Shown here piece after piece: positions 8,176-23,320 of a DNA stretch of 25,380 bases. The DNA comes from a virus, in IMG/VR virus record IMGVR_UViG_3300045777_000083, positions 1 through 25,380 of that record. One strand, 5' to 3'. The translations under genes and the position numbers were made by a program. The stretch's first letter is position 1. Each line of letters starts with the position of its first letter. Under the pieces are notes generated by a model. That model was given only the letters and a program-made list of their open reading frames with translations. It did no database searches and was not told the DNA's origin.

Positions 8176-8229
8176 ATGGCAACCTATAAGGCACCAAAAG
8201 CGACCTTTATGGCTACTTATAAGGCACCA
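8176..8229 (+). repeat. Tandem direct repeat, 21 nt at 33-nt period
   Basis: Bases 8176-8196 and 8209-8229 match at 19 of 21 positions, both ending TATAAGGCACCA. The two differences preserve the encoded residues (GCA/GCT for Ala, ACC/ACT for Thr). This favours selection on the peptide, though the two TATAAG cores could also be read as promoter-like boxes. Confidence 0.7.
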
Positions 8230-8244
8230 GGGGGCGGCCGATGA
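8176..8244 (+). CDS. Possible 22-aa tandem-repeat peptide
   Basis: ATG at 8176 lies one base after the J-like stop. The frame encodes 22 residues ending in TGA at 8242-8244, which overlaps the next gene's ATG as ATGA. The peptide is two 11-residue units, MATYKAPKATF and MATYKAPGGGR. ATGA coupling is used elsewhere in this window (17686), so translation is plausible. No upstream ribosome binding site is obvious, and the repeat could instead be a nucleotide-level regulatory signal. I know of no family match. Confidence 0.3.
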   Translation: MATYKAPKATFMATYKAPGGGR

Positions 8245-11200
8245 GCGATATCGCGAAGAGGGCCAAGGCGAAGCTAGAAAAGGGCGCTGCAAGGCGGCTA
8301 AAGGGCGCGTTTGACCCGATGAAGGAGCTTCCACCGGACGACGCTAAAAATATGGCGAGCTGGGTTGGGGGCAACGGGGATAAGCGGGAAAACCTTCCGG
8401 AGATGTCTCCCGCTGCTAGGCACCGCGCCACCAATAAGCTCATGAGTCGAACGAAGTGGAGAAAGAATCCCGAAACAAGCGAGAGGGAGTTCCTTCTTCA
8501 TCGGCAGATGTCGATAAAAGAGCACGACAAGTCGATCTCTGGCGGCAAGATTACACATGGCAAAACCACGTCCTGGACGCCCGACCCAGCAAGGGTGGAA
8601 GAGGGCATTTACAAGCCAGGCGACGCGGCCTCGGCCCGCGACTATGGAAGAAGGGTCTCGGCCTGGATTCCCGAGTCGAAAATCAAAAGCTACATCCCGC
8701 AATATGGAGCGCACGCCACTGCCGACACTAAGGCTAAACAGCCAGTCGAGCGTCGCGGGGCGCCCGACATGAGCGAGCAAGAAGTTATCGTTCATCCCCA
8801 TACCTCGGATATCCACGAGACGCACGCCGACCTTCGGGCCGACAAGTACAACACCGAGGAACAACACGCGCTTGAGGCCAAGACGATGGATGGCAAAGCT
8901 CCGGACATGGAAGGCGGCTGGAAGTGGACGAAGACCTACTCGACCCCAGACATGAAGAAATCCGAGCTTGCCAAGAGCCCAACCAAGCAGCCTAGCAAGG
9001 ACCCTATCCTTAGCGCCAACTACACGCCCAAGGCCCCGAGCGAGAGCTATAAGCAAAAGGCCAAGCAATATATTGAGGCTAGGGCTGCGGCGAAAAAGCC
9101 AGCGCTTGATAAGGGCGAGCGCGGTGACTGGAAGAAAGAGGGATATAAGATATCCCATACACCTGCGAAGAGCGGCATTACCGTTCATGCGCACGACAAA
9201 AACGGGAATTTGGTTGGAGAGACGGATTTCGTACATCGCGGAGACGCCATTTATCCAGATCACACCGAGGTCGATGAGGGCCACCAGCGTAAGGGCATAG
9301 CGACAGGCATGTATCATCACGCGATGAGCGTTACTGGTAAAAAGATTCAGCGGCCTGGATATCATGACCAAACTCCAGATGCCCGAGCCTTTTGGGATGA
9401 GAATTCCAACCGCCAGTTCGGGAAGAGCGAGCTTGCCAAGGCCATCACCAACAAAAAGGTGGCGAACCATTGGCACCAAAGCGCCTACCCCTACGAAGAC
9501 TACAGCAAGGAAAACCGCGAGCATTTTGAAGACATGTTGGCTAACCACCATGAGGGCCAGTGGACAAAAACCAAGATTCCCGTTGCCCAAACCGAGGGAC
9601 ATCACAGCGGGCACGACAAGACTGGCGAGTACATTAAAGAGTATGCCGACCAACGCAATACTGGCTCGGAGTTTCCTGCCATTATCGCCAAGCCCCATCC
9701 AGACAAGCCAGGGCACTTTAAGACGATCGACGGCATGCACCGGCTTGCGGCTGCAAAGGCCGTAGGGCAAACGCACATCGACGCCTACATCCCTAAGGCA
9801 GATAAGCTAGACAAGGGCGAAAAGGGCGACTGGAAGAGCGAAGGCTACACACTAAGTCACGAGCACTATAAGGACGAGCACGACGGGCACAACAAGGTAG
9901 TAGTCCGCGCCCACACCAAGACCGGCAAGCTGGCGGGCGAGGCACACGTCCACAACGACGAGCAAAATCACATTCTGCCACACATAACCGAAGTCAAGGC
10001 AGCCCACAGGCGCAAGGGCCTGGCCTCCGCGATGTACCAGCACGCAGAGCACGTGACCGGCAAGAGGGTCATCCGTCCGGAGCACGACTCGCAGTCCGCT
10101 TCGGCCAAGAAGCTATGGGACCGGCCCAACAAGCCGTTCGGCAAATCAGAAGAACTTGGTAAGAGCTGGCAGCCTAAGTTTGACCCGGCCGATATCCCGA
10201 AAGAGCACCGCGTGACCGCCTCCCGCTGGACGCAATCGGGAAGCGACCTTCAGTACACCGAAGCCGATCGCCAGAATATCCCAGAAATGCAGGGAGCCAT
10301 GCGCGCGAGGGGCCTGCAGCGCCTGCATGCGGCCACGCAAACGCGCCGGAACCCGGAGACGGGCGAGCGCGAGTTTCTCCTTCACCGGGGCATGCACGAG
10401 GACGAGTTCAATACTTACTCTAAAGACGGCCATATCGACTACAGCGGCAAGATTAGCTCGTGGACGCCCAAGGAGAAGATCGCCCAAAACTTTGGCTCCG
10501 AGGCCAACTGGCCAACCAAGGGCGATGAATACAAGCCCGAAAACAAGCATGTCTCTATCTGGGCCCCTGAGTCGGCAATTCATCATGTTCCCAAGATGCT
10601 TGGCTCCATGGATGACAAAACAGACGCCAGGGGCAAGATGGAACGCCATGGTGAGTTTGAAACGCTATTAAAGCCTGGCAAATACAAGACGCACGCAGTT
10701 GCGGCTCTTGCTCCCATGGAAGATCGCTGGGCAAAGTTTAGTCCCCGCCCGGTTGCTAAATCAGAAGACCTCGACAAAGGCATCAAAGAGGCCGCAACGG
10801 CCATCGCCCTTGGTGCCTCGGCTCTTGCCCCAACGCACCTCTCGAACGCCATGACGGCTCCGCAGAAGCCAGCGATGCAGGCCCCGGCCCGCATTGCCCT
10901 TCATCCGGACCTTGAGCACATATCGTTTATCGAATCCTCTGGCGGAAAAAATAAGAACCACGAGAAGACGACGGTTGGCGTAAACGCTGGCCACACCGCT
11001 GGCGGGGCCACAGGCCTTATGCCAATCACCATACAAGAGACGCTCAAAAAGAATCCTGCGCTTGGCAAGAAGTACGCTCACCTCGTTGGCGCCTCGCACG
11101 ATACAGTTACGTCCGAGATTAACAAAAATCCCGACATGGAAGCGGATATCGCCAATGCCCACTGGAACCGGCTCGGCAATACTCTTGGCCACGACAAGGC

Positions 11201-14200
11201 GAAGATGGCGTTTGCCTGGAGAAACGGCATTACGGCAGCCAAGCGCGCCACGCCCGAGGAGCTAAGCGGCCACCCCTACGTTCAGAAGTTTATGAAGCGC
11301 TCGGCGCAGCGGAAAGTGGCGGGGCTTGAGAAGGGCGAGAGGGGCGATTGGAAGAAAGAGGGGTACTCGTTTGAGCATCACTCTGGCGAGATTGGCGGCA
11401 CGAAGAAGCACTCGATCATAGCCAAGGACAAGGCGGGAAAGTCCGTTGGTGAATATCATTTCAACGAGCACAGTGATTATGTGCAGCCATCAATGGTTAA
11501 GACCCTTCGATCGCATAAGAGGAAGGGCCTAGCCACTCAGGCCTACAAGATGGCCGAGCAGAAAAGCGGAAAGGCTGTAAAGCCAGGCTGGTCAATGACC
11601 AACGAGGCTAAGGCACTTTGGTCGCAAGAAAGCAGGCCGTTCGGTAAGAACGAGCCTCTCGACAAAACCATGTCCTTCGGCCACTCGCCCTCTGGCGGCG
11701 CGCTGACTGGCGGCGCAGCCCTAGTGGCCGAGTCCATCGATGGCGCAAGCCGGCTCAAAGAAGCGGCGGGCAAGATCAAGAAGAAGCTTGAGAAGGCCGA
11801 CGATGGCTTCGCGCACAAGGGCTATCAGTTTAAGAGCGTAGCCCACCCCAAGACGCCAAAAGACGCAAAGGCGTTCGAACTAACCCATCCGTCTGGCGAA
11901 AAGGAAATCGTCTTCGCCAAGGACCACAACGAGATGGGCGCGCACATCGATAGCCTTGAGGCCAAGAAGATCACGAAGTCGGCAAAGGATTTTGTCGGCC
12001 GCGTGAATCTGGCAAAGGCAATCGAGGAATTGGACGAGATGGAGGAATTGGCGAAGGGCTCCAGGTATTCCGAGCACGAAGACAAGGCCGACGGATATAT
12101 CGAGAAGGCGGCTCACCACCATCGCCAGGCCGAGCTACACGCAAGCCATGCTACGCTTTGCGCGCTCCATAAGGACTTGCGCGGGCAGAACTGCGAGCTG
12201 GCGCTCCGTTGCCTTAAGAAAATCCACGGTAAAGACGCGGCCAAGGTTTTGGCCGAGAAGCTCGACAAGGCCGGGCTTCCATTAGGCAAATCCGAACTCG
12301 CCAAGGCCGCAAAGGACGACGTCTCCGAGGTTGCTTCCGTTGCCGTTCGAAACGGCCATAAAATCCTCATGGGCGCCCGTCGCGACAACGAGCGTTGGAC
12401 CCTGCCTGGCGGACACCTCAATGCTGGCGAGGAAAAAGAAGAGGGCGCTGCAAGGGAGCTGTTCGAAGAATCTGGCATCAAGGCTGACCCCAAGGACTTA
12501 AAGTATCTAGGCTCGGAGGACGTCACCACGTTCACCGGCAAGAAAAAGCGCATCCATTCTTATTCCTACGAGCACCAGGGCGAGATTCCCACTGTCGAAA
12601 ACGACCCGGATAAAGAAGTCCACCAGTGGCATTGGATTGACGCGAAGGACGGCCTGCCGAGCCATATCGCCGAGAACCTCCACAGCCCCAAGAACTCGAC
12701 GCTTCAGCGGCTTGGGCTTCAAGACGCCGAGATGGCGAAGTCCGACGTCGCCTCCCGCCTAAAGAAGGCCATTCAACGGAATAGCTTAGAAAAGGGAATC
12801 AACGGAGACTGGAAGGACGATCCAAAGTACCGCTTCAAGCACACCCACTTTAAGAGTGGCGGGAATGTCATTCGCGCCTACCACGGGCGTACTAAGGTTG
12901 GTCATTTCGCTTATTCGGAGAGCCCGGACAAAGAGGGCTACCACTTTGTACACAATGGCGACGTCAGCTCCGAGCATCAAGGCAAGGGCCTTTATCAGGA
13001 AATGATGAGGCGGGCCGGCGAGCATGTCGTCGGTGCGGGAGCAAAAGGCCTAAAATCTGAAGGCTACCAACGCAGCAAGGACGCTACTCGCGTTTGGGAT
13101 AAAGTAGCCACCCACGCCATGCCATATACGAGCAACGCAAAGGTTAGTGGCGAGCACACCCAGCGCACCACCGACTACTACTACACGCCAGAATTGAAGA
13201 AGTCCGAGCCGCTCGAGAAGATGTCCCGGCCGGCCATCGGTTTCCCCAACTTCAAGAAGCTCTCTACCCGCCCCGACCAGGAAGTGCAGACGGTCGAGAG
13301 CAACCGCCAGGCCGAGATGTTCGGCCGCAAGGCCGCTGTCGCAAACGATATGAGCACGGTGACCCGCGCCGACAAGTACAAGGCCATCTATGGCCGCGAC
13401 ATTCCTAAGCCTACGGCAAAGGACACGAAGTCGCCCCGCGACCAGGCAGCAACCATGATCACCAATAGCTTTGGCCGCAATACGCTTGGCATGGTGGTGC
13501 CGTCCAACCGTGGCCCCAAGGCCGCCGCACTCACCGGCAAGCTGCGCTCGAAGTTTGAAGATGGCGGCGACGAGTACAATACGAAGTTGAAAGAGCACAC
13601 CGAGAAGCGCAACGCCATCGTCCGCGACCATAACGAAAAGGTCGCCGCTTGGCGCACGAAAGCTTACGACCTTTCAACCAAGAGCGGCCCAGGCGCAAAA
13701 GAGGCCTACGATGCTCACGTCGCCACGCGACCGGCCAAGCCCAAGCTCCCGCGCAAGCCGTCCAAGCCGAAAGTGGAAACTAAGGCGCTTGCGCCTGATA
13801 AGCAAAAAGCCCGTGGGCAATCGATCGACTCCACCATCCACCACGAGGGGCTGCATCACTCGATGGCCGAGATGGAGAAGCATTACGGAAAGCGCGCCGC
13901 CCACAATGCGACGCAAGGAATGCTGAGCCAGTTCCACCCGGATGCTATCAGGCATGTGGCCTCCTTTATCAGCAACCGCATGGGCTACAAGACGTCGAGC
14001 CCTAAGTTTCCTGAAGAGGTCCTAACCCACTCGCGCGATATCCTAGTCAATCCGGATAAGCGGAAGAAGTTTAAGGAGCACGTCGGAACCGACAAGGCCG
14101 ACGAGACGATTAAACAGCTTAAAGTGGGCCACGAGAAGGCCTACCGCTACGCCCAGACATTGCGGCCTGAAGATGTCGGTGCAGGAAACGTGAAGAAGTC

Positions 14201-14723
14201 GGACGTTGCATCCCGCCTGAAGAAGGCCATCGACCGCAATTCGGATATCACGCTTGAGCTATCCCTCGTTGACGACGAGGCCTCCGAGCTTGAGAAGGCC
14301 GAGTTCGCACCCACCTACGAAGGCGAAATCCATCCCACGAAGGGCTACATCGCTGCGAAGCACCCGACGCTCAAGACCCTGATGTGGACGTCGGCCCCGG
14401 AAACGCAGGCTGCCCACGACCGGCACATCGGTCGGGACGACCTCAAAAACAAGCTCCTATCCAGAGTGGAACACCCCGAGCACAAGAAGATCCTCACCAG
14501 CCTGATCGGTTCGGTACAGAAGGACCCCAGACGCCATTTTATTCCAACTGAGGAGAGCGGGCGGCACGTTCTCAGGGCGAGACACTTAAAATCGTTGATG
14601 CATGGCAGCGATGATATTAGTATGGATACAAGCGACCCAAGTCGCCTCCGCATCACCCTTCATCAGAGGCACGGTAGGAATACCGCGCCTACGTCGTTTT
14701 TATACACGATGAAGAAGGGATAA
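8241..14723 (+). CDS. Giant multi-enzyme 'polyvalent' protein (ART, GNAT x4, ParB-like, SLT, Nudix, HExxH)
   Basis: This Lys-rich protein has 2,160 residues and strings together effector-type modules. ART-like 1 spans ~70-190 (R88, TSWT at 110-113, ExE at E179/E181). GNAT 1 is 289-392 (Q349xxG352xA354). A ParB-like module is ~410-520 (IDGMHR, 496-501). GNAT 2 is 523-632. ART-like 2 is ~690-820 (R716, SSWT at 739-742, E805/E807). The lytic-transglycosylase-like module is ~885-1020 (E898 in FIESSGG, GATGLMP, FAWRNG). GNAT 3 is 1029-1133. Residues 1138-1348 are unassigned. Nudix is 1359-1490, with a complete GX5EX7REUXEEXGU box at 1391-1413. GNAT 4 is 1516-1620. HEGLH is at 1868-1872. The C-terminal module is ~2025-2160. 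Nine KSE-type linkers separate the modules. This matches the polyvalent-protein concept of Iyer, Aravind and colleagues: effectors delivered with DNA. Delivery and targets are inference. It sits between two baseplate genes and may be translationally coupled to the preceding small frame. Confidence 0.85.
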   Translation: MSDIAKRAKAKLEKGAARRLKGAFDPMKELPPDDAKNMASWVGGNGDKRENLPEMSPAARHRATNKLMSRTKWRKNPETSEREFLLHRQMSIKEHDKSISGGKITHGKTTSWTPDPARVEEGIYKPGDAASARDYGRRVSAWIPESKIKSYIPQYGAHATADTKAKQPVERRGAPDMSEQEVIVHPHTSDIHETHADLRADKYNTEEQHALEAKTMDGKAPDMEGGWKWTKTYSTPDMKKSELAKSPTKQPSKDPILSANYTPKAPSESYKQKAKQYIEARAAAKKPALDKGERGDWKKEGYKISHTPAKSGITVHAHDKNGNLVGETDFVHRGDAIYPDHTEVDEGHQRKGIATGMYHHAMSVTGKKIQRPGYHDQTPDARAFWDENSNRQFGKSELAKAITNKKVANHWHQSAYPYEDYSKENREHFEDMLANHHEGQWTKTKIPVAQTEGHHSGHDKTGEYIKEYADQRNTGSEFPAIIAKPHPDKPGHFKTIDGMHRLAAAKAVGQTHIDAYIPKADKLDKGEKGDWKSEGYTLSHEHYKDEHDGHNKVVVRAHTKTGKLAGEAHVHNDEQNHILPHITEVKAAHRRKGLASAMYQHAEHVTGKRVIRPEHDSQSASAKKLWDRPNKPFGKSEELGKSWQPKFDPADIPKEHRVTASRWTQSGSDLQYTEADRQNIPEMQGAMRARGLQRLHAATQTRRNPETGEREFLLHRGMHEDEFNTYSKDGHIDYSGKISSWTPKEKIAQNFGSEANWPTKGDEYKPENKHVSIWAPESAIHHVPKMLGSMDDKTDARGKMERHGEFETLLKPGKYKTHAVAALAPMEDRWAKFSPRPVAKSEDLDKGIKEAATAIALGASALAPTHLSNAMTAPQKPAMQAPARIALHPDLEHISFIESSGGKNKNHEKTTVGVNAGHTAGGATGLMPITIQETLKKNPALGKKYAHLVGASHDTVTSEINKNPDMEADIANAHWNRLGNTLGHDKAKMAFAWRNGITAAKRATPEELSGHPYVQKFMKRSAQRKVAGLEKGERGDWKKEGYSFEHHSGEIGGTKKHSIIAKDKAGKSVGEYHFNEHSDYVQPSMVKTLRSHKRKGLATQAYKMAEQKSGKAVKPGWSMTNEAKALWSQESRPFGKNEPLDKTMSFGHSPSGGALTGGAALVAESIDGASRLKEAAGKIKKKLEKADDGFAHKGYQFKSVAHPKTPKDAKAFELTHPSGEKEIVFAKDHNEMGAHIDSLEAKKITKSAKDFVGRVNLAKAIEELDEMEELAKGSRYSEHEDKADGYIEKAAHHHRQAELHASHATLCALHKDLRGQNCELALRCLKKIHGKDAAKVLAEKLDKAGLPLGKSELAKAAKDDVSEVASVAVRNGHKILMGARRDNERWTLPGGHLNAGEEKEEGAARELFEESGIKADPKDLKYLGSEDVTTFTGKKKRIHSYSYEHQGEIPTVENDPDKEVHQWHWIDAKDGLPSHIAENLHSPKNSTLQRLGLQDAEMAKSDVASRLKKAIQRNSLEKGINGDWKDDPKYRFKHTHFKSGGNVIRAYHGRTKVGHFAYSESPDKEGYHFVHNGDVSSEHQGKGLYQEMMRRAGEHVVGAGAKGLKSEGYQRSKDATRVWDKVATHAMPYTSNAKVSGEHTQRTTDYYYTPELKKSEPLEKMSRPAIGFPNFKKLSTRPDQEVQTVESNRQAEMFGRKAAVANDMSTVTRADKYKAIYGRDIPKPTAKDTKSPRDQAATMITNSFGRNTLGMVVPSNRGPKAAALTGKLRSKFEDGGDEYNTKLKEHTEKRNAIVRDHNEKVAAWRTKAYDLSTKSGPGAKEAYDAHVATRPAKPKLPRKPSKPKVETKALAPDKQKARGQSIDSTIHHEGLHHSMAEMEKHYGKRAAHNATQGMLSQFHPDAIRHVASFISNRMGYKTSSPKFPEEVLTHSRDILVNPDKRKKFKEHVGTDKADETIKQLKVGHEKAYRYAQTLRPEDVGAGNVKKSDVASRLKKAIDRNSDITLELSLVDDEASELEKAEFAPTYEGEIHPTKGYIAAKHPTLKTLMWTSAPETQAAHDRHIGRDDLKNKLLSRVEHPEHKKILTSLIGSVQKDPRRHFIPTEESGRHVLRARHLKSLMHGSDDISMDTSDPSRLRITLHQRHGRNTAPTSFLYTMKKG

Positions 14724-14926: not shown

Positions 14927-14950
14927 GCCCCTAGAATCATATCTAGGGGC
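14927..14950 (+). promoter_or_regulatory. Perfect 9-bp hairpin holding the ribosome-binding site of the wedge gene
   Basis: GCCCCTAGA (14927-14935) and TCTAGGGGC (14942-14950) form a perfect 9-bp stem with a 6-nt loop. The only AGGGG-like ribosome binding site before the ATG at 14962 lies in the 3' arm (14945-14949). Folding would therefore mask it. No T-run follows, so an intrinsic terminator is unlikely. Translational control or an RNA-processing site fits better. Confidence 0.5.
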
Positions 14951-14961
14951 CGAGAACCTAA

Positions 14962-16986
14962 ATGTCCGATACTCCGCAGTTTACGCAAGCCTACGAGAAC
15001 CTCCTCGCGCGCTTCCCCAGGCGCTACCGGGCAAGGGCCTCGACATACCTTTCGGGGCTCTTAAAGGCCCTGGCAGAGGGCGACGGCCTCATGGAAACCA
15101 ACGTCGAGGCGACGCGCGACCAGCTTCTTGTCATGACGGCCTCTGGCAAGAACCTCGACCAGCTCGCCTCCCTTTACGGCGTCGTCCGCGACCAGGCAAC
15201 CGGAGTGCAGGACTCAGACTTCCGGAAGCTCGTCCCTGTCCTTGGCCTCACCACCAAGGCGATCAGCAGCACGCTTCAAAAAGTGGTCGATATCATCTAC
15301 GGCCCCTACGCCACGCACGCCAACGTCACCTGCTCCGCCCCCGAGCCCTACGCCCTTTCGGCAGGCTCCGCGCTCACCGTCCTCGTTGACGGCAGGGCCA
15401 TCAGCATCGTCTTCCAGGAGGGCGACGCGGTCAGCCTCTCGGCCGCCACCGCCCTCGAGGTGGCCACCGCCATCGGCCAGCGCACGGGCGGGCAAGTGTC
15501 CGGGTCGGTCGTCTCTAACGTCCACACGGGCGCCAACTACGTCAATATCCAAACCCCCACCATCGGCACCCAAGGCTTCATACAGGTACTTGGCGGCAGC
15601 GCCCAGACGGCCCTAAGGTTCCCCGAGATCCGCTCAACCCTCCAGGGCATCGGAACTTGGAGCGTCGCTAGGTACGCTGGCTCGGCCGAGATGGCCTTTT
15701 CAGTGGTGTCCGGCAACGGCCCAGGACTTCAAACGGCAGGCGTGAAGGTGGGAGACTACGTCACTATTCGCCCCGACTCAGGATTTCAGCCCGGCAACTG
15801 CGGCTCGTTCCCTGTCACTTTTGTCTCAGAGACCGCCTTCCGCTGCCTGAACCCCACGGGCGTACCCGAGGTGAATAACGTCGAGCAGGCGCACGTTGAC
15901 GACTTCACCTTCTTCCGCCCCGACCTCGCCAATATCCTGCTTGCGGCCAGGCCCGCGACGATCACGCAGTCAGCCCCCTCCGAGCTGACCATTACGCTCC
16001 CCGTGACCTCTCCCATCGTCAAAAGGGTCTTGCCTGGAAGCCACCACTTCCACGGCGGCATCGCCTCCGTCACCGCAACTGCGCCCACCACCATGACCTT
16101 GAGCACGGCCAACGGCTTTGCGGCCTCTGGATCAGTCCGCATGGCGACCTCGCGAGACGCCTCAATCGGCGTTATCTCGAGCGTTGGCTCGGGCGTTGCC
16201 TCTCTTATCTCGGCCGAAGGATGGCCATCGGCCGGCGCCTTCTACTCTCCCACTACCGACTCCTACTTCTACTACAGCGGCCTAAGCGGGACTCACCTTA
16301 CGGGCGTAATCCCCCAGCCGCCAACGTCGATTGTCGGATCGACGGTCAGCTTTTCGCGGAGATATTCTTACTCTGGCGTCAGCGGGAGCCAGCTTACGGG
16401 CGTCTACCCGAGCCCTTCAGAGGCCCTGGGCTTTGAGGTCGTGGCCGACGTGGCTCTCGCTGGAGCCTTTATCGGCTCCTTCCGCTATGACCTAACGGCC
16501 CCGTTCATCCCCTCGCAGTACGGCACCACGGTGACGGCGAAGGTTGAGCAGGGCTCCTCCCAAACCGTCTTGCAAGTGGCCGATATCTCGACGTGGCCCG
16601 CGAGCGGAAGCTTTTTGGTCGAGTACGGGACGGGCGCGCAAGAGGGTCCGATCAAGTATTTAGGGAAAGTGGGGACGACTGGGCTTCTCATCGACCCAGG
16701 CCACGTATTCGCCCTCGATCACCCTGCTGGCGTGTCGATTCGCTGCGTGCGCCAGGTCGGGGTCTTCGCCCCCAGCAAGGACGGCTCCGACTACCCCGTT
16801 TACATCACCGATACGTCCTTGGCCCGCAGCCTCGTCTCAACCTACTTAAGCCAGATCGCGGCAGCCGGCATCACCCTGGTGTTCAATATCCAGATGCCGC
16901 CCTACCAGTGGGACATGCTCCCGCCCCTCTACACCACCAACCCGACCGACGCCTCTCTCAGCCAGCCCCTTGCCACGGTGACGTGA
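14962..16986 (+). CDS. Second baseplate wedge protein (J/gp6-like) with beta modules
   Basis: This 674-residue protein has N-terminal ~35-75 (METNVEATRDQL, then GKNLDQLASLYGVVR) echoing the same stretch of the J-like protein (ATGADLENLATEMGV), so the two look like paralogous wedge components. Residues ~128-222 resemble the ~90-residue modules inserted in the J-like protein. Two short repeats, YYSGLSGTHLTGV (~439) and YSGVSGSQLTGV (~471), belong to a beta module seen again in the fibre protein at 17686. The C-terminus (SQIAAAGITLVFNIQMPP) looks like the J-type end. Its stop overlaps the next gene's start (TGATG at 16984-16988). The baseplate role is well supported by context; the exact family is not certain. 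Confidence 0.7.
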   Translation: MSDTPQFTQAYENLLARFPRRYRARASTYLSGLLKALAEGDGLMETNVEATRDQLLVMTASGKNLDQLASLYGVVRDQATGVQDSDFRKLVPVLGLTTKAISSTLQKVVDIIYGPYATHANVTCSAPEPYALSAGSALTVLVDGRAISIVFQEGDAVSLSAATALEVATAIGQRTGGQVSGSVVSNVHTGANYVNIQTPTIGTQGFIQVLGGSAQTALRFPEIRSTLQGIGTWSVARYAGSAEMAFSVVSGNGPGLQTAGVKVGDYVTIRPDSGFQPGNCGSFPVTFVSETAFRCLNPTGVPEVNNVEQAHVDDFTFFRPDLANILLAARPATITQSAPSELTITLPVTSPIVKRVLPGSHHFHGGIASVTATAPTTMTLSTANGFAASGSVRMATSRDASIGVISSVGSGVASLISAEGWPSAGAFYSPTTDSYFYYSGLSGTHLTGVIPQPPTSIVGSTVSFSRRYSYSGVSGSQLTGVYPSPSEALGFEVVADVALAGAFIGSFRYDLTAPFIPSQYGTTVTAKVEQGSSQTVLQVADISTWPASGSFLVEYGTGAQEGPIKYLGKVGTTGLLIDPGHVFALDHPAGVSIRCVRQVGVFAPSKDGSDYPVYITDTSLARSLVSTYLSQIAAAGITLVFNIQMPPYQWDMLPPLYTTNPTDASLSQPLATVT

Positions 16987-17306: not shown

Positions 17307-17519
17307 ATGGGCTACCTCCTGCAATGGGCGCACGCATACGTCGTTCACTTTGGCGGCTGGGTGGCGATGCTCGTGGCGTTTGCGGTCTACAAGGACGGCC
17401 TGCCTGAGCCCAAGAGGCTTCCCTCGCTCTTTAAGAGCGCGGTGGCCTTGGCCTTTTTCGCTAGCTTCTTCTCGAGCCACGCGCAGCACCACCTCATAAG
17501 CCACTTCTTGGCCAAGTAG
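17307..17519 (+). CDS. Small membrane protein, candidate holin partner
   Basis: This 70-residue protein starts 3 nt after the preceding stop, with GGGTGAGAG as its ribosome binding site. It has two hydrophobic segments: about 10-28 (YVVHFGGWVAMLVAFAV) and 43-58 (SAVALAFFASFF). They are separated by a charged Pro-containing turn, and a His-rich tail (HAQHHLISHF) ends in Lys. The size and two-helix topology fit a holin, antiholin or spanin-like accessory, but no endolysin gene is next to it. The function is therefore unproven. Confidence 0.6.
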   Translation: MGYLLQWAHAYVVHFGGWVAMLVAFAVYKDGLPEPKRLPSLFKSAVALAFFASFFSSHAQHHLISHFLAK

Positions 17520-17548
17520 GTCTGCGCAAACAGGGCGAAAATGACGAA
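17519..17548 (+). promoter_or_regulatory. Conserved 30-nt leader, copy 1
   Basis: GGTCTGCGCAAA, four variable bases, then GCGAAAATGAC run up to the ATG of the 46-aa gene at 17549. The same arrangement, with the same 30-nt distance to an ATG, recurs at 20391. In this copy CAGGGC (17531-17536) can pair with GCCCTG (17554-17559), placing the ATG in the loop. No classical AGGAGG-type site is present. It may be a phage promoter or a translation-control element. Confidence 0.55.
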
Positions 17549-17689
17549 ATGAAGCCCTGCGCGCATTCGGCGAGGCGCGCCTGCAGATGTCGCTATTGCG
17601 GCCTTCGCAAGGACGAGCGCAAGCCCTCAAAGCGCCGCGCGCGCCACGAAGCCAAAAAAGAAATCAAGAATCAGAAGGAAGAGGAATGA
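17549..17689 (+). CDS. 46-aa Cys-rich basic protein, putative small zinc-binding protein
   Basis: ATG 17549 to TGA 17687-17689 encodes 46 residues. Cys4, His6, Cys12, Cys14 and Cys17 cluster at the N-terminus (a CxCxxC core, CRCRYC), followed by GLRKDERKPSKRR and a charged helical tail ending KEEE. The pattern suggests a tiny zinc-binding fold that may contact nucleic acid or a partner protein. Support for its reality: it has the conserved leader at the same distance as the 59-aa gene at 20421, its stop overlaps the next start as ATGA, and its Cys pattern is not expected by chance. I do not recognise a named family. Confidence 0.65.
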   Translation: MKPCAHSARRACRCRYCGLRKDERKPSKRRARHEAKKEIKNQKEEE

Positions 17690-20385
17690 GCGTACTTTCA
17701 AGGGTGTCCCTCTACAGCGGCGAGCGCTTTGATATCCCAGACGCACGCGCCCAAGACGCAGCAAGCCTCAACGACTGGCGCTACTTTATCTCTGGCAACC
17801 TCACCGCCAAGAGCGTCGTCATCTCCGGCTTTGACATCACCAACTACTCGAGCGTCTTCGCCGGCGCGGGCCCGAAGCTCCAGCAGAACAACGTCGCCAT
17901 GCTCCATCCAGAAGCCGCGACCCAGGCGTCGGGCTTCTACGTCTCATCCGGCACCGAGTCCGACTTCTCGGTCGTGCTCAACGCCAGCACCACCAACTAC
18001 GTCGAGCTTGACCTGTCCACATCCACCGGAACCCCTGACGTCCGGGCCTTTTGGGACCCAGGCGCGGCCGGGGGGCAGGGCGCCGAGTACACGGCCACGG
18101 TCGATACGCTGGTTAACCTTGAGCTGAATATCTTGGTCAACGTCTCTGGCTTCACCGCCGGGCGCCTGCCGCTCTATAAATTCGTCACCAATTCTTCGGG
18201 CACGATCACCTCCTTTGAGGACTGCCGCAATCCCTTCTACGACTTAGCCACCGGCGGCACGAGCCCCAACCCGAACAACAGCTACTCCTTCCCGGCCGAC
18301 GCGGGCATGTCGGCCTACGCCCGCTTCCCCGCGCCATCGACAGCCACCCCTGGATCAGTGGCCCCCTTCCTAGGCGGCGGCAAGTACATCGCGAGCCAAA
18401 AGGAGTGGATGGACGTCGTCATGACCAAGCTGAAGGAGCTTGGAGCGACGCCCTACTGGATTAGCAAGTCGGCATCGGTCGCTTCCGCCTACCAGAACGC
18501 GGCCATGACCCTCATCTCGGGCGGCACCTGGAGGCACCTTGGCCTGGCCGCGCCCATCACCAATACGACCTCAAGCACGATCACCGTGGCCGTGGGCCAG
18601 ATGTTCATGGCGTCGTCGTCTACTATCGTAGCCAATGGCGTCACCTATTCCTACAGCACCTTCAACAGCACAACTGGCCTATTCACTGGCGTGAGCCCGG
18701 CGCCCGCAGGCGGCTTGGTAGGCCAATACGCTGCGCAAGGAGCTGTTGGTCACGTTGGCCTCGCCAACGGCTCAACCCTCGTTCGCCTGGGCCAGGGAAG
18801 CTCAAGCCTGCTTCCGTTTGCGAGCATCGACCTCACGACTCTGCGCGCTCTCTTCATCTTCCTAAGCACGGACGGCTCGGCTCTCGGATACGGCATGGGG
18901 CAGGACGCGACATCCCCGGTTAAGCCCCAGGCGATTGCGTCCGCTACCAATTCGTCCATCACCGTGGCCTCAGGCGGAAACTACATCGCTGGCGGCGGCA
19001 ACGTCATGATTCGCGGCCAGCTCTTCTCTTATGCGACCTATGCGGAGAGCGGGGGGACAGGCCTGTTCTCCTCGGTTACGCCAGACGCCTCGGGCCTAGC
19101 GCAAGCGGGCGACCTTGCCTTTCAGGCGGCCTCCTCGGGCACCGGCTACTACCACGCTGCCACGGCGGCTAACCTCCCCGGAACGACTGGCGGGATATCC
19201 GAGGGCGTTGAGAGCTGCATGTGGCTTGCCTACTTCGACGGCGCCGACACGATCTTTATCAAGGACTCGGAGCTTATCCCCGGCGAGTCGGTAACGACCG
19301 GCGGGAGCGAGCCCGACCAGATTTTCACCTATATCGGCTCATCGGGCGCGGCCGACGCATCGCCCGTCTACAACGTCGCCTCTATTCCCAATGGCACCGA
19401 CCTCACCACCGCCATCTCCGACGCCTACCACATCATCGAGACCCCTATTTACGACGAGAAGGTGGCGGTCACGTCTGCCATTTCCTCTGGCGATATCGTC
19501 TACTTGCCGTCCAACTCGAAGACGTCCACGGCAGCCAACTACTCGGCCGGCACCGACGAGCTTGAGGTGTACGAAAACGGCGTGCTCTTGCAAAAAGGCT
19601 ACGACTACACCGAGAACACCTCCAACTCCATCCAGATGTCCAGGGACGTCTACGTCGGCTCGGTGATTAGGTTTAGGGTCGCCTCCATTGGCGGCGCTGG
19701 CGCGAGCAGCGGCGGAAGCAGCGGAACGAGCCTGCAGACGGCATACAACAACGGCAACACGGTCGCGGTCTCCACCGGCCAGCCACTCACTATCACGGGC
19801 TCGAGCGGTAAGCTCCTTCATGTCGCGGGCGACGTACAAATCGACGGCGTGATTGATCCGACAGCGATTGAATTTACGCCCCAGTCGTCAAGCCCACTGG
19901 CATCTGGCGTGGCCGGCTTCTGGGTTCACCCCACCGAGGGCCTCCAATACCAGCACACCGACAACACGGTCGTGGCCATAAGCCAGGCGGTAGAGGCGAT
20001 CAGCGGCAACGCGGCCAGCCTCTCGATGACGATGACCAACGGCTCGGGAGCCACGATCCCGGCCGGGAGCCCCGTTTACATCTCGGATACCAGCACGGTT
20101 AAGCTTGCCAACGCCGGGGCCGACGTCACCAGCAGGTTCTTTGGCATCGCGGCCGTATCCATCGCCGCTGGCGCCACGGGGCAGGTCATCTACCAGGGCG
20201 TCGTCCCTGGCATGCTGACGGGCCTGGGATTGCCAGCCGGGGAATACCTGTGGCTTCAGACCTCTGACGGTGGAATGAGCCCCACGGCACCGTCTACGGC
20301 CGGAGCCTACCTAATTATCCTTGGCATCACCAACGGCAACGACCTCATCCTCCAGCAGCAAACCAACGGCATCGTCGGCGTCTAG
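17686..20385 (+). CDS. Tail fibre or baseplate-associated structural protein (899 aa)
   Basis: The start is set at ATG 17686. It overlaps the 46-aa gene's stop (ATGA) and has a GGAAGAGGA ribosome binding site. The frame stays open up to an ATG at 17587, but those 33 codons are Arg/Pro-rich and lie inside the 46-aa gene. The N-terminal ~280 residues (RFDIPDARAQDAASLNDWRY, then a FLGGGKYIASQKEW segment) look like a virion-attachment part. Two beta modules follow (YSTFNSTTGLFTGV near 325, YATYAESGGTGLFSSV near 450). A carbohydrate-binding-like DELEVYENGVLLQKGYDY module is at ~620-665, then a Gly/Ser linker (~670-682). The C-terminal ~110 residues (IPAGSPVYIS onward) resemble the end of the next fibre and small decoration-type domains. 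The precise role is not settled. Confidence 0.7.
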   Translation: MSVLSRVSLYSGERFDIPDARAQDAASLNDWRYFISGNLTAKSVVISGFDITNYSSVFAGAGPKLQQNNVAMLHPEAATQASGFYVSSGTESDFSVVLNASTTNYVELDLSTSTGTPDVRAFWDPGAAGGQGAEYTATVDTLVNLELNILVNVSGFTAGRLPLYKFVTNSSGTITSFEDCRNPFYDLATGGTSPNPNNSYSFPADAGMSAYARFPAPSTATPGSVAPFLGGGKYIASQKEWMDVVMTKLKELGATPYWISKSASVASAYQNAAMTLISGGTWRHLGLAAPITNTTSSTITVAVGQMFMASSSTIVANGVTYSYSTFNSTTGLFTGVSPAPAGGLVGQYAAQGAVGHVGLANGSTLVRLGQGSSSLLPFASIDLTTLRALFIFLSTDGSALGYGMGQDATSPVKPQAIASATNSSITVASGGNYIAGGGNVMIRGQLFSYATYAESGGTGLFSSVTPDASGLAQAGDLAFQAASSGTGYYHAATAANLPGTTGGISEGVESCMWLAYFDGADTIFIKDSELIPGESVTTGGSEPDQIFTYIGSSGAADASPVYNVASIPNGTDLTTAISDAYHIIETPIYDEKVAVTSAISSGDIVYLPSNSKTSTAANYSAGTDELEVYENGVLLQKGYDYTENTSNSIQMSRDVYVGSVIRFRVASIGGAGASSGGSSGTSLQTAYNNGNTVAVSTGQPLTITGSSGKLLHVAGDVQIDGVIDPTAIEFTPQSSSPLASGVAGFWVHPTEGLQYQHTDNTVVAISQAVEAISGNAASLSMTMTNGSGATIPAGSPVYISDTSTVKLANAGADVTSRFFGIAAVSIAAGATGQVIYQGVVPGMLTGLGLPAGEYLWLQTSDGGMSPTAPSTAGAYLIILGITNGNDLILQQQTNGIVGV

Positions 20386-20390
20386 TCCCC

Positions 20391-20420
20391 GGTCTGCGCA
20401 AAGCGCGCGAAAATGACCGA
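20391..20420 (+). promoter_or_regulatory. Conserved 30-nt leader, copy 2
   Basis: GGTCTGCGCAAA, four variable bases, then GCGAAAATGAC exactly match copy 1 at 17519, again ending 3 nt before an ATG (20421). Within this copy GCGC-AAA-GCGC (20396-20406) is a short self-complementary stretch. The exact spacing in both places argues that the element is functional and tied to the start of the small genes. Confidence 0.55.
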
Positions 20421-20600
20421 ATGGAACCAAGCCCAGAGATGATCGAGATGGCCCAGTCGCTTGCCGCCCGCCTTGAGGCGGAAATCGCAGCGATTACGGC
20501 CGAGTACAACGATTTGATCCGGGCAGCGGGAGAAAGGGCGGGGGTCGCTCTCTCTACCGAGGTCGAAATCAAGATCATTAAAGGGGCAGGGGCCGAGTAA
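20421..20600 (+). CDS. 59-aa helical protein, putative fibre accessory
   Basis: ATG 20421 to TAA 20598-20600 encodes 59 residues. They are mostly amphipathic helix (MIEMAQSLAARLEAEIAAIT) with a C-terminal TEVEIKIIKG strand-like end. The stop overlaps the next fibre's ATG as TAATG, and the conserved leader precedes it. A helical protein translated just before a tail fibre could be an assembly factor or a small structural part. It has no recognisable family motif. Confidence 0.6.
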   Translation: MEPSPEMIEMAQSLAARLEAEIAAITAEYNDLIRAAGERAGVALSTEVEIKIIKGAGAE

Positions 20601-23320
20601 TGTCGAATATCGTTAAGGCAATCAAGTTCGTAAACGGGGTCGCGCAGCAGATCAGCCCCAGCACAGATTCCCTCGCAGCCGCGTCCTACTTCGTCGGCGG
20701 CACGGGCGGCACCGAGCTGACGCAAACCATCCTCAACAACCTGACGGGCGGCACGAGCACCGACGCAAGCTCGCTCCACAACCACGACACGCGCTACTAC
20801 ACCAAGGCGCAGCACCTCTCCTCGAGCGCGGGCGCGGCCTCGGCCAACCAGCCGATCCAGACCAATGCCTCCGGCTACGTCGATCCGACGTTCATCACCC
20901 AGGGCGGCATCACCCACGCCAACCTGGCGGGCTTGACCTCGTCTGACGACCATACGCAATATCATAACAACACCCGTGGCGACGCGCGCTACTTCCAGCA
21001 GTCGCAGTTCCTGGCCGTATCGGCCGGCGCCGGCTCGGCTGGAGCGCCAGTAAAGCTGAACTCGTCGGGACAAATCGACGCGACAATGATATCAAGCTCG
21101 GCCACCAACCACGAAAGCCTATCCGGCCTTCTTGGCGGCACGACGGCGCAGCACTATCACCTGACGCAGTCCGAGCACGATACCCTGCAGGGCGCAGGCG
21201 GCGTCGTTGACGCAAGCTCGCTCCATAGCCACTCAAGCCTTTATTACACCAAGTCGGCCGTCGATACGTCGCTTGCCGCGAAAGCCCCGGCCGCCACCTC
21301 CATCCAGAGCACTGGCTCGATCGCCTTCACGGCCGACCAGTCGATGGGTAGCCATAAGCTCACGAACGTGGCCGACCCCTCGGTCGCCACCGATGCAGCG
21401 ACAAAAAACTACACCGATACCCAAACTGGCCTGCTCCTTCCGAAAGCCGGCGGCACGATGTCCGGCACCCTCAACATGGGGAGCCAGTCGATCACCAACG
21501 TGGCGACGCCCGTTAGCCCGAACGACGCCGCAAACAAAGCTTATGTTGACGCCGCGCAAGCCGGCCTCTTGATTAAGGCTCCCGTTTACGCGGTCGCCAC
21601 CACCAACATCAGCCTAAGCGGCGCCACTCCCACCATCGACGGCGTCACCGTCCCGAACGGATCGCGCGTCCTGGCCGTTGGCCAAACCACCGCCTCGCAA
21701 AACGGCGTGTATATCGTCGGCTCTGGCTCGTGGGCAGCGGACGGCGACTGGGTCACCGGGCAAGTCGTAGAGGGCAACTACTATTTCGTCGATTACGGCA
21801 CCTCATGGGCGAGAAGCGCATGGGTCGTCAGCACGCAAACGGCCATCACGGTCGGAACCTCCTCTGTCGCCTTCCAGCGCTACAACGCCGCCGGCCAGCT
21901 CGTTGGCGGGGTTGGCATCACGATTACGGGCGATACGGTCGCGGTCAACTTCGGCGCTGGTACAGCGCAATTGCCCACTGGCGAGATCGGCATCGGCCTC
22001 TACGCCTCCTCTGGCCTTGATCTCGTCGATTCTGGCACTGGCCTTCCCAGCACGGCACAGGGCGCGCAACTCACGCATAAATTAGACGGGACCACCCTAT
22101 CGAAGTCCTCGACCGGCGTGAAGGTGGCGGCTGGCGGCATCACGGCAACCGAGCTGAACTCGTCGGTCGCGGGCTCCGGCCTCTCCGGCGGCGCGGGCTC
22201 GAGCCTGTCTGTCAACACTGGCCACGGCACGCAAATCTACTCTGGCGCGGTCGTGGCGAAGGCCTCCGACCTCGCGGGCACGGGCCTGCAGGCGACTGGC
22301 TCGGCCGGCTCTGATACCCTGCAAATCAACCCGTCTATCGCGGGCAACGGCCTGGCCTACTCGGCAGGCGTCGCGAGCGTAAAGACGGACGGAACGACCG
22401 TTGACCTCAACGGCTCGCAGCAGATCGAGGTGAAGGCCGGCGGCGTTGGCACTGCGCAACTTGCTTCCAACGCGGTCGATAATACAAAGATCCTCTTTAC
22501 CGTCTCCGGCAACGGCGTTCGCGCGAGCAACATTCCCCTCCTCGACACCCTCGGCACCTTCTCCTCGAACGACGTCGAATCGGCCCTTAACCAAATGGCG
22601 AAGAGCACCTTCGTCGAGAACTACACGGCAGGCGAGGCGATCGGCTCTGGCGCCCTAGTTTGCATCCGCAGGGACTCGGGAAACTTGCCCAAGCTTTACA
22701 AGGCCTCGGCAGCGGCCTCCGACAACTACCTGGCAGGCACCCTTCTCCTCCAGGACATTACCTACACGTCGGTTACGCCCTCTGGCAACTTTATCACCGT
22801 CACCTACGTTAACCCAGGCGCGGCCAGCTCGGCCCTGTCTGTGTCCGTCACCGGCAACGCCATCACCGTTTACCTCGCCACCAACTCATCAAGCTCTCTC
22901 ATCTCGACCGCTACGCAAGTGGCGCTGGCCGTCAACACCAGCACCCCGGCCTCGGCCCTGGTGACGGCGACCGTCACGGGCACGGGCTCGAACATCCAGG
23001 CCGCAGCATCGGCCGCGTCGCTTACGGGCGGGATGGACTTTAACGACAATGGACGCTGGGAAGTGGTCGGCATGACCCTCTCGGCCGTCTCGTCTGGCTC
23101 CACGGTGAACGTGCAGAAGATCGGGCGGCTCGCATGCTCGTTCGTCTCCGCGCCAACGGCCGCCAACATCGGCCAGGCGGTCTACCTCTCGATCAACCAA
23201 GGGCAGGCGGTCGTGTACACGGCGCCGTCTGTATCCAACCAGCCAGTGGTGGAGCTTGGCCGCCTGGTGAGCACGACGGAAGTGGAATTCCGCGCGCCGC
23301 AGCTCCGGTACATCAACTAA
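20600..23320 (+). CDS. Tail fibre protein (906 aa)
   Basis: ATG 20600 overlaps the upstream stop and is preceded by AGGGGC. The product has clear tail-fibre repeats. His-rich units with HxH motifs lie at ~54-70 and ~210-225 (SSLHNHDTRYYTK, SSLHSHSSLYYTK), with an LSGLLGGTTAQHYHLT unit near 174-190. GGTMSGTLNMGSQSITNV at ~284-302 leads into an NDAANKAYVDA hinge. The following domain, ~324-430 (APVYAVATTNISLSG, IDGVTV, NGVYIVGSGSW), is widespread in phage fibres. A long Ser/Thr/Gly repeat region leads to C-terminal domains at ~674-906, including an ITVTYVNPGAASSALSVSV module (~732-812). It is expected to be a trimeric receptor-binding fibre. No chaperone-type self-cleavage motif is recognised. 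Confidence 0.85.
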   Translation: MSNIVKAIKFVNGVAQQISPSTDSLAAASYFVGGTGGTELTQTILNNLTGGTSTDASSLHNHDTRYYTKAQHLSSSAGAASANQPIQTNASGYVDPTFITQGGITHANLAGLTSSDDHTQYHNNTRGDARYFQQSQFLAVSAGAGSAGAPVKLNSSGQIDATMISSSATNHESLSGLLGGTTAQHYHLTQSEHDTLQGAGGVVDASSLHSHSSLYYTKSAVDTSLAAKAPAATSIQSTGSIAFTADQSMGSHKLTNVADPSVATDAATKNYTDTQTGLLLPKAGGTMSGTLNMGSQSITNVATPVSPNDAANKAYVDAAQAGLLIKAPVYAVATTNISLSGATPTIDGVTVPNGSRVLAVGQTTASQNGVYIVGSGSWAADGDWVTGQVVEGNYYFVDYGTSWARSAWVVSTQTAITVGTSSVAFQRYNAAGQLVGGVGITITGDTVAVNFGAGTAQLPTGEIGIGLYASSGLDLVDSGTGLPSTAQGAQLTHKLDGTTLSKSSTGVKVAAGGITATELNSSVAGSGLSGGAGSSLSVNTGHGTQIYSGAVVAKASDLAGTGLQATGSAGSDTLQINPSIAGNGLAYSAGVASVKTDGTTVDLNGSQQIEVKAGGVGTAQLASNAVDNTKILFTVSGNGVRASNIPLLDTLGTFSSNDVESALNQMAKSTFVENYTAGEAIGSGALVCIRRDSGNLPKLYKASAAASDNYLAGTLLLQDITYTSVTPSGNFITVTYVNPGAASSALSVSVTGNAITVYLATNSSSSLISTATQVALAVNTSTPASALVTATVTGTGSNIQAAASAASLTGGMDFNDNGRWEVVGMTLSAVSSGSTVNVQKIGRLACSFVSAPTAANIGQAVYLSINQGQAVVYTAPSVSNQPVVELGRLVSTTEVEFRAPQLRYIN

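Follow-up and report, generated by a model that had tools for sequence, protein, structure and literature searches.

Two start codons in this viral fragment are preceded by the same leader, GGTCTGCGCAAA-N4-GCGAAAATGAC, at precisely the same distance, and each of them opens a pair made of a small ORF and a tail-fibre gene. The leader is a real repeat. Our favoured explanation, to which we give a probability of about 0.4, is that it is a phage-specific cis signal starting the two units, most likely a promoter lying next to the ATG and producing leaderless or nearly leaderless mRNA. A functional leader would mean that two different tail-fibre units have their output controlled by a single short signal, separately from the tail operon. 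The claim is modest, since start-site motif repeats are common in phages.

The window, i.e. the whole stretch of DNA that was analysed, is the entire virus record: a linear fragment of 25,380 bases with 61% G+C, whose genes lie on the + strand (Table 1). The nearest isolated phage that we found is Myxococcus phage Mx1, with around 29% protein identity, and the fragment belongs to a phage lineage without close known relative.

Table 1. Genes of the window and elements of the repeated leader.
Feature	Position	Strand	Remarks
Baseplate-type genes	start 377 and 2553	+	Baseplate J match for the gene at 2553
2160-aa gene	8241-14723	+	
Baseplate-like gene, 674 aa	start 14962	+	
Small ORF, 105 aa	between 674-aa gene and 70-aa ORF	+	
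70-aa ORF	17307..17519	+	gene-like coding score; last G of its stop TAG (17517-17519) is base 1 of leader copy 1
Leader copy 1, GGTCTGCGCAAA-CAGG-GCGAAAATGAC	17519..17545	+	exact pattern match
GAAAAT, candidate weak -10 box	17537..17542	+	putative; 4/6 against TATAAT
Repeat extension across ATG of 46-aa ORF, GAAATGAAGCC	17546..17556	+	
46-aa ORF	17549..17689	+	Lys/Arg-rich, C-x-H ... C-x2-C pattern; borderline coding score
Fibre-like gene 1, 899 aa	17686..20385	+	stop TAG (20383-20385); leader copy 2 begins after five further bases
Leader copy 2, GGTCTGCGCAAA-GCGC-GCGAAAATGAC	20391..20417	+	exact pattern match
GAAAAT, candidate weak -10 box	20409..20414	+	putative; 4/6 against TATAAT
Repeat extension across ATG of 59-aa ORF, CGAATGGAACC	20418..20428	+	
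59-aa ORF	20421..20600	+	gene-like coding score
Fibre-like gene 2, 906 aa	20600..23320	+	PHROG head decoration / tail fibre matches

The 27-nt pattern occurs exactly twice in the window, both times without mismatch, and no third copy appears there when up to three mismatches are allowed. Dinucleotide shuffles of the window gave no match, i.e. none is expected by chance. Both leaders start 30 nt before the ATG (17549 and 20421), just as the original prediction had described them, four free bases included; three of these four bases differ between the copies. Aligned without gaps, the match extends to 38 nt, of which 31 are identical; it includes ATG[A/G]A[A/G]CC and ends at codon 3. Over the 30 nt upstream of the ATG the two leaders share 25/30 positions, against 13/30 for the runner-up among the 78 pairs formed by 13 gene starts and a maximum of 21/30 in 20,000 shuffled sets of 13 upstream stretches. 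A comparison of all 38-mer pairs revealed two stronger repeats, both within the repetitive 2160-aa gene. The conserved part of the leader comprises 23 invariant bases, of which roughly half are G+C; they form two blocks, one of 12 and one of 11 nt, that are identical between the copies, and the differences cluster in the 4-nt spacer and 3' of the second block. When seven differences were placed randomly in 38 nt, two such identical runs arose in about 1.3% of the trials; this clustering mildly favours selection on the two blocks.

Further copies were found neither in viral contigs at three stringencies, nor in genome contigs, nor by blastn in phage records, in public collections that may omit records very near the window. 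The leader was also absent, with up to three mismatches allowed, from 11 related records (10 behind related loci and Myxococcus phage Mx1), and our literature search returned no description of the motif. The known copies are two only, both in a 25 kb fragment.

The starts that follow the leader are unusual in the window. Almost every other start has a usable Shine-Dalgarno, but those of the two small ORFs have none. Pairing with the anti-Shine-Dalgarno is absent at 20421 and positioned too far upstream at 17549, in agreement with the prediction that neither site has a strong Shine-Dalgarno; elsewhere it ranges from -3.9 to -9.5 kcal/mol, except at 377, where the gene start may be misplaced. 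The leader keeps a second ATG 8 nt upstream of the start ATG. A mini-ORF (MTK-stop) that could serve reinitiation was considered and rejected, as it is found in copy 1 only. Each small ORF overlaps the fibre gene that follows: the TGA of the 46-aa ORF shares an ATGA at 17686 with the start of fibre gene 1, and the TAA of the 59-aa ORF forms a TAATG at 20598-20602 with the start of fibre gene 2. Small ORFs without Shine-Dalgarno and coupled to fibre genes are easily overlooked by annotation.

Both small ORFs had been taken for genes. This suits the codon use of the 59-aa ORF, which is gene-like; that of the 46-aa ORF is borderline, with a value between those of in-frame and off-frame reading, for which its unusual Lys/Arg/Cys content may be responsible. 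Their proteins had also been described as unrelated, which holds beyond codon 3. We found no convincing relatives of either protein in PHROGs, Pfam, phages or viral contigs. The leader might itself have been a coding extension (GLRKxxENDxM), an idea that we rejected as the copies have no synonymous differences, no usual start codon and no relatives.

How would the leader act? We infer that it is functional and that it acts on transcription. Present once per bicistronic unit of small ORF and fibre gene, it would start each unit apart from the upstream tail genes, as a promoter-type DNA site with GGTCTGCGCAAA and GCGAAAATGAC as its two contact blocks. The start of transcription would coincide with the ATG or lie very close to it; the small ORF would then be read from a leaderless or near-leaderless mRNA, and the fibre gene would be translated next, through stop/start coupling to the small ORF. 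The GAAAAT hexamer ends 7 nt 5' of the ATG in both copies and would put the +1 near the A of the ATG. Its position, taken with the absence of a Shine-Dalgarno and the constant spacing, agrees with a promoter that starts its transcripts at the ATG; the missing Shine-Dalgarno and constant distance at both starts are what one might expect of leaderless initiation.

The homologous region of related viruses is informative in this respect. Fibre gene 1 has 41 relatives in viral contigs, with 30-38% identity in the best segment, and a weak similarity to Phage_cement_2 that is under the curated cutoff. Many of these relatives (among L003-L041) have a promoter-like TATAAT box, often GGTATAATTTAAGT, around 20-50 nt before the ATG of the first fibre gene and usually followed by a Shine-Dalgarno. 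Hence, the clade plausibly starts transcription at this junction between baseplate and fibre genes, which speaks for the promoter reading. The two elements are alike in their place upstream of a homologous fibre gene. Yet, the box of the relatives is AT-rich and made of a single part, and it is absent from the window leader: there is no TATAA near either copy, and fibre gene 1 is not preceded by a box of the GGTATAATTTAAGT type.

Four of the relatives (L003, L006, L010 and L035) carry an extra gene at this junction, upstream of the fibre gene, and the four encoded proteins have a similar C-terminal HNH-like region. One of the three inserted genes tested had a sub-threshold match to a Pfam HNH family. 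Taken together, the box and the inserted genes make the junction an insertion point of the clade and, probably, a site of transcription initiation as well. We also considered the 46-aa ORF as an HNH remnant, given that the inserted genes of some relatives lie at its junction, and rejected the idea as it shows no similarity to them.

Several observations go against the promoter. The leader motif differs from the TATAAT box of the relatives and is missing from the related records searched, only two copies are known and the coding score of the 46-aa ORF is borderline. Sigma-70 promoters have -35 and -10 hexamers spaced by 16-18 nt, and a scan for them called neither leader: there is no match to a -35 box, and the putative -10 box, GAAAAT, has only 4/6 matches. 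The sigma-54 pattern GG-N10-GC was rejected because it fits copy 2 only. Finally, 5' UTRs in the jumbo phage AR9 measure 26-491 nt (PMC5312081), which counts against leaderless transcripts. The interpretation given in the original prediction is partly supported. Its phage-specific promoter is possible. Its broader proposal, a regulatory similarity heading two fibre sub-operons, is plausible: the position of the leader, the lack of Shine-Dalgarno, the stop/start coupling and the TATAAT box of the relatives fit it.

The leader resembles phage-specific late promoters, such as those of T4 or those used by the non-virion RNA polymerases of phiKZ and AR9, in that a short motif is repeated before late structural units. 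In phiKZ, a TATG motif overlaps the transcription start of late promoters (PMC7598289). However, the conserved blocks of the leader include neither TATG nor AACA-N6 nor TATAAATA, and the leader is longer and in two parts. It might represent a new class of two-part phage late promoters abutting start codons, producing leaderless bicistronic mRNAs for a small ORF and a fibre protein and recognised by a polymerase that the phage encodes or modifies, a more specific proposal that we regard as unlikely. No polymerase gene is visible in the window, because the genome is incomplete.

The leader might instead work in translation, with the A-rich mRNA around the start, with its two AUGs 8 nt apart, being bound by a phage protein or allowing ribosomes to load independently of a Shine-Dalgarno. 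The mRNA of the start region would then set the output of both pairs of small ORF and fibre gene. The repeat does cover the start codon and retain the extra ATG, and neither start has a usable Shine-Dalgarno. RegA operators of T4 likewise overlap or adjoin the AUG, with a 5' A tract and no structure (PMC3014915). But RegA sites, rich in A+U, show weak conservation, unlike the leader with its 23 invariant bases. The 5' block GGTCTGCGCAAA of the leader, moreover, extends 30 nt upstream, past the usual ribosome footprint. Given also the two copies and the lack of a known regulator, we consider such an operator rather improbable.

A fairly recent duplication of the start region, as modules were shuffled at two junctions between genes, would explain the repeat with no dedicated regulator beyond a role as start site. 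Under this hypothesis one understands why the similarity continues past the ATG as far as codon 3, where it abruptly ends, and why the leader is open in the frame of the ORF (GLRKxxENDxM[K/E]P); the genes inserted at the same junction in the relatives therefore mark a module boundary. But the differences between copies are clustered rather than spread, and since the flanks are unrelated on both sides the leader alone would have been copied. This history, too, strikes us as somewhat unlikely.

The RNA switch that had been suggested as the alternative to a promoter fares poorly. Weak pairing between the blocks is possible (GUC..GAC, CGC..GCG), and most shuffles fold less well than copy 2 (z -2.1). 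However, copy 1 has no advantage over shuffles (z -0.5) and forms other pairs when placed in its context, while the shared fold reaches just -4.4 to -4.9 kcal/mol. Because this fold is weak and the copies favour different ones, a switch or conserved regulatory hairpin is highly improbable; Rfam gave no match at gathering thresholds and otherwise one chance-level match. Chance or codon-driven similarity can practically be discarded: the window does contain further repeats that are about as strong, located in repetitive genes, but the leaders lie outside the long genes, at equal distance to two ATGs, no shuffle equalled their match and the position-matched test makes such similarity very unlikely.

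Other elements of the window deserve mention. The 2160-aa protein has a NUDIX-type match around residues 1305-1505, and its gene contains several spaced repeated segments of around 34-54 nt each. A micro-ORF of 22 aa at 8176-8244, MATYKAPKATFMATYKAPGGGR, includes MATYKAP twice as an internal repeat, the DNA copies of which differ by synonymous changes only; the micro-ORF ends in a TGA overlapping the start codon (ATG at 8241) of the 2160-aa gene. In the gap 5' of the baseplate-like gene at 14962, positions 14928-14949 form a perfect 8-bp inverted repeat, CCCCTAGA-ATCATA-TCTAGGGG, which overlaps a TAGAAT box.
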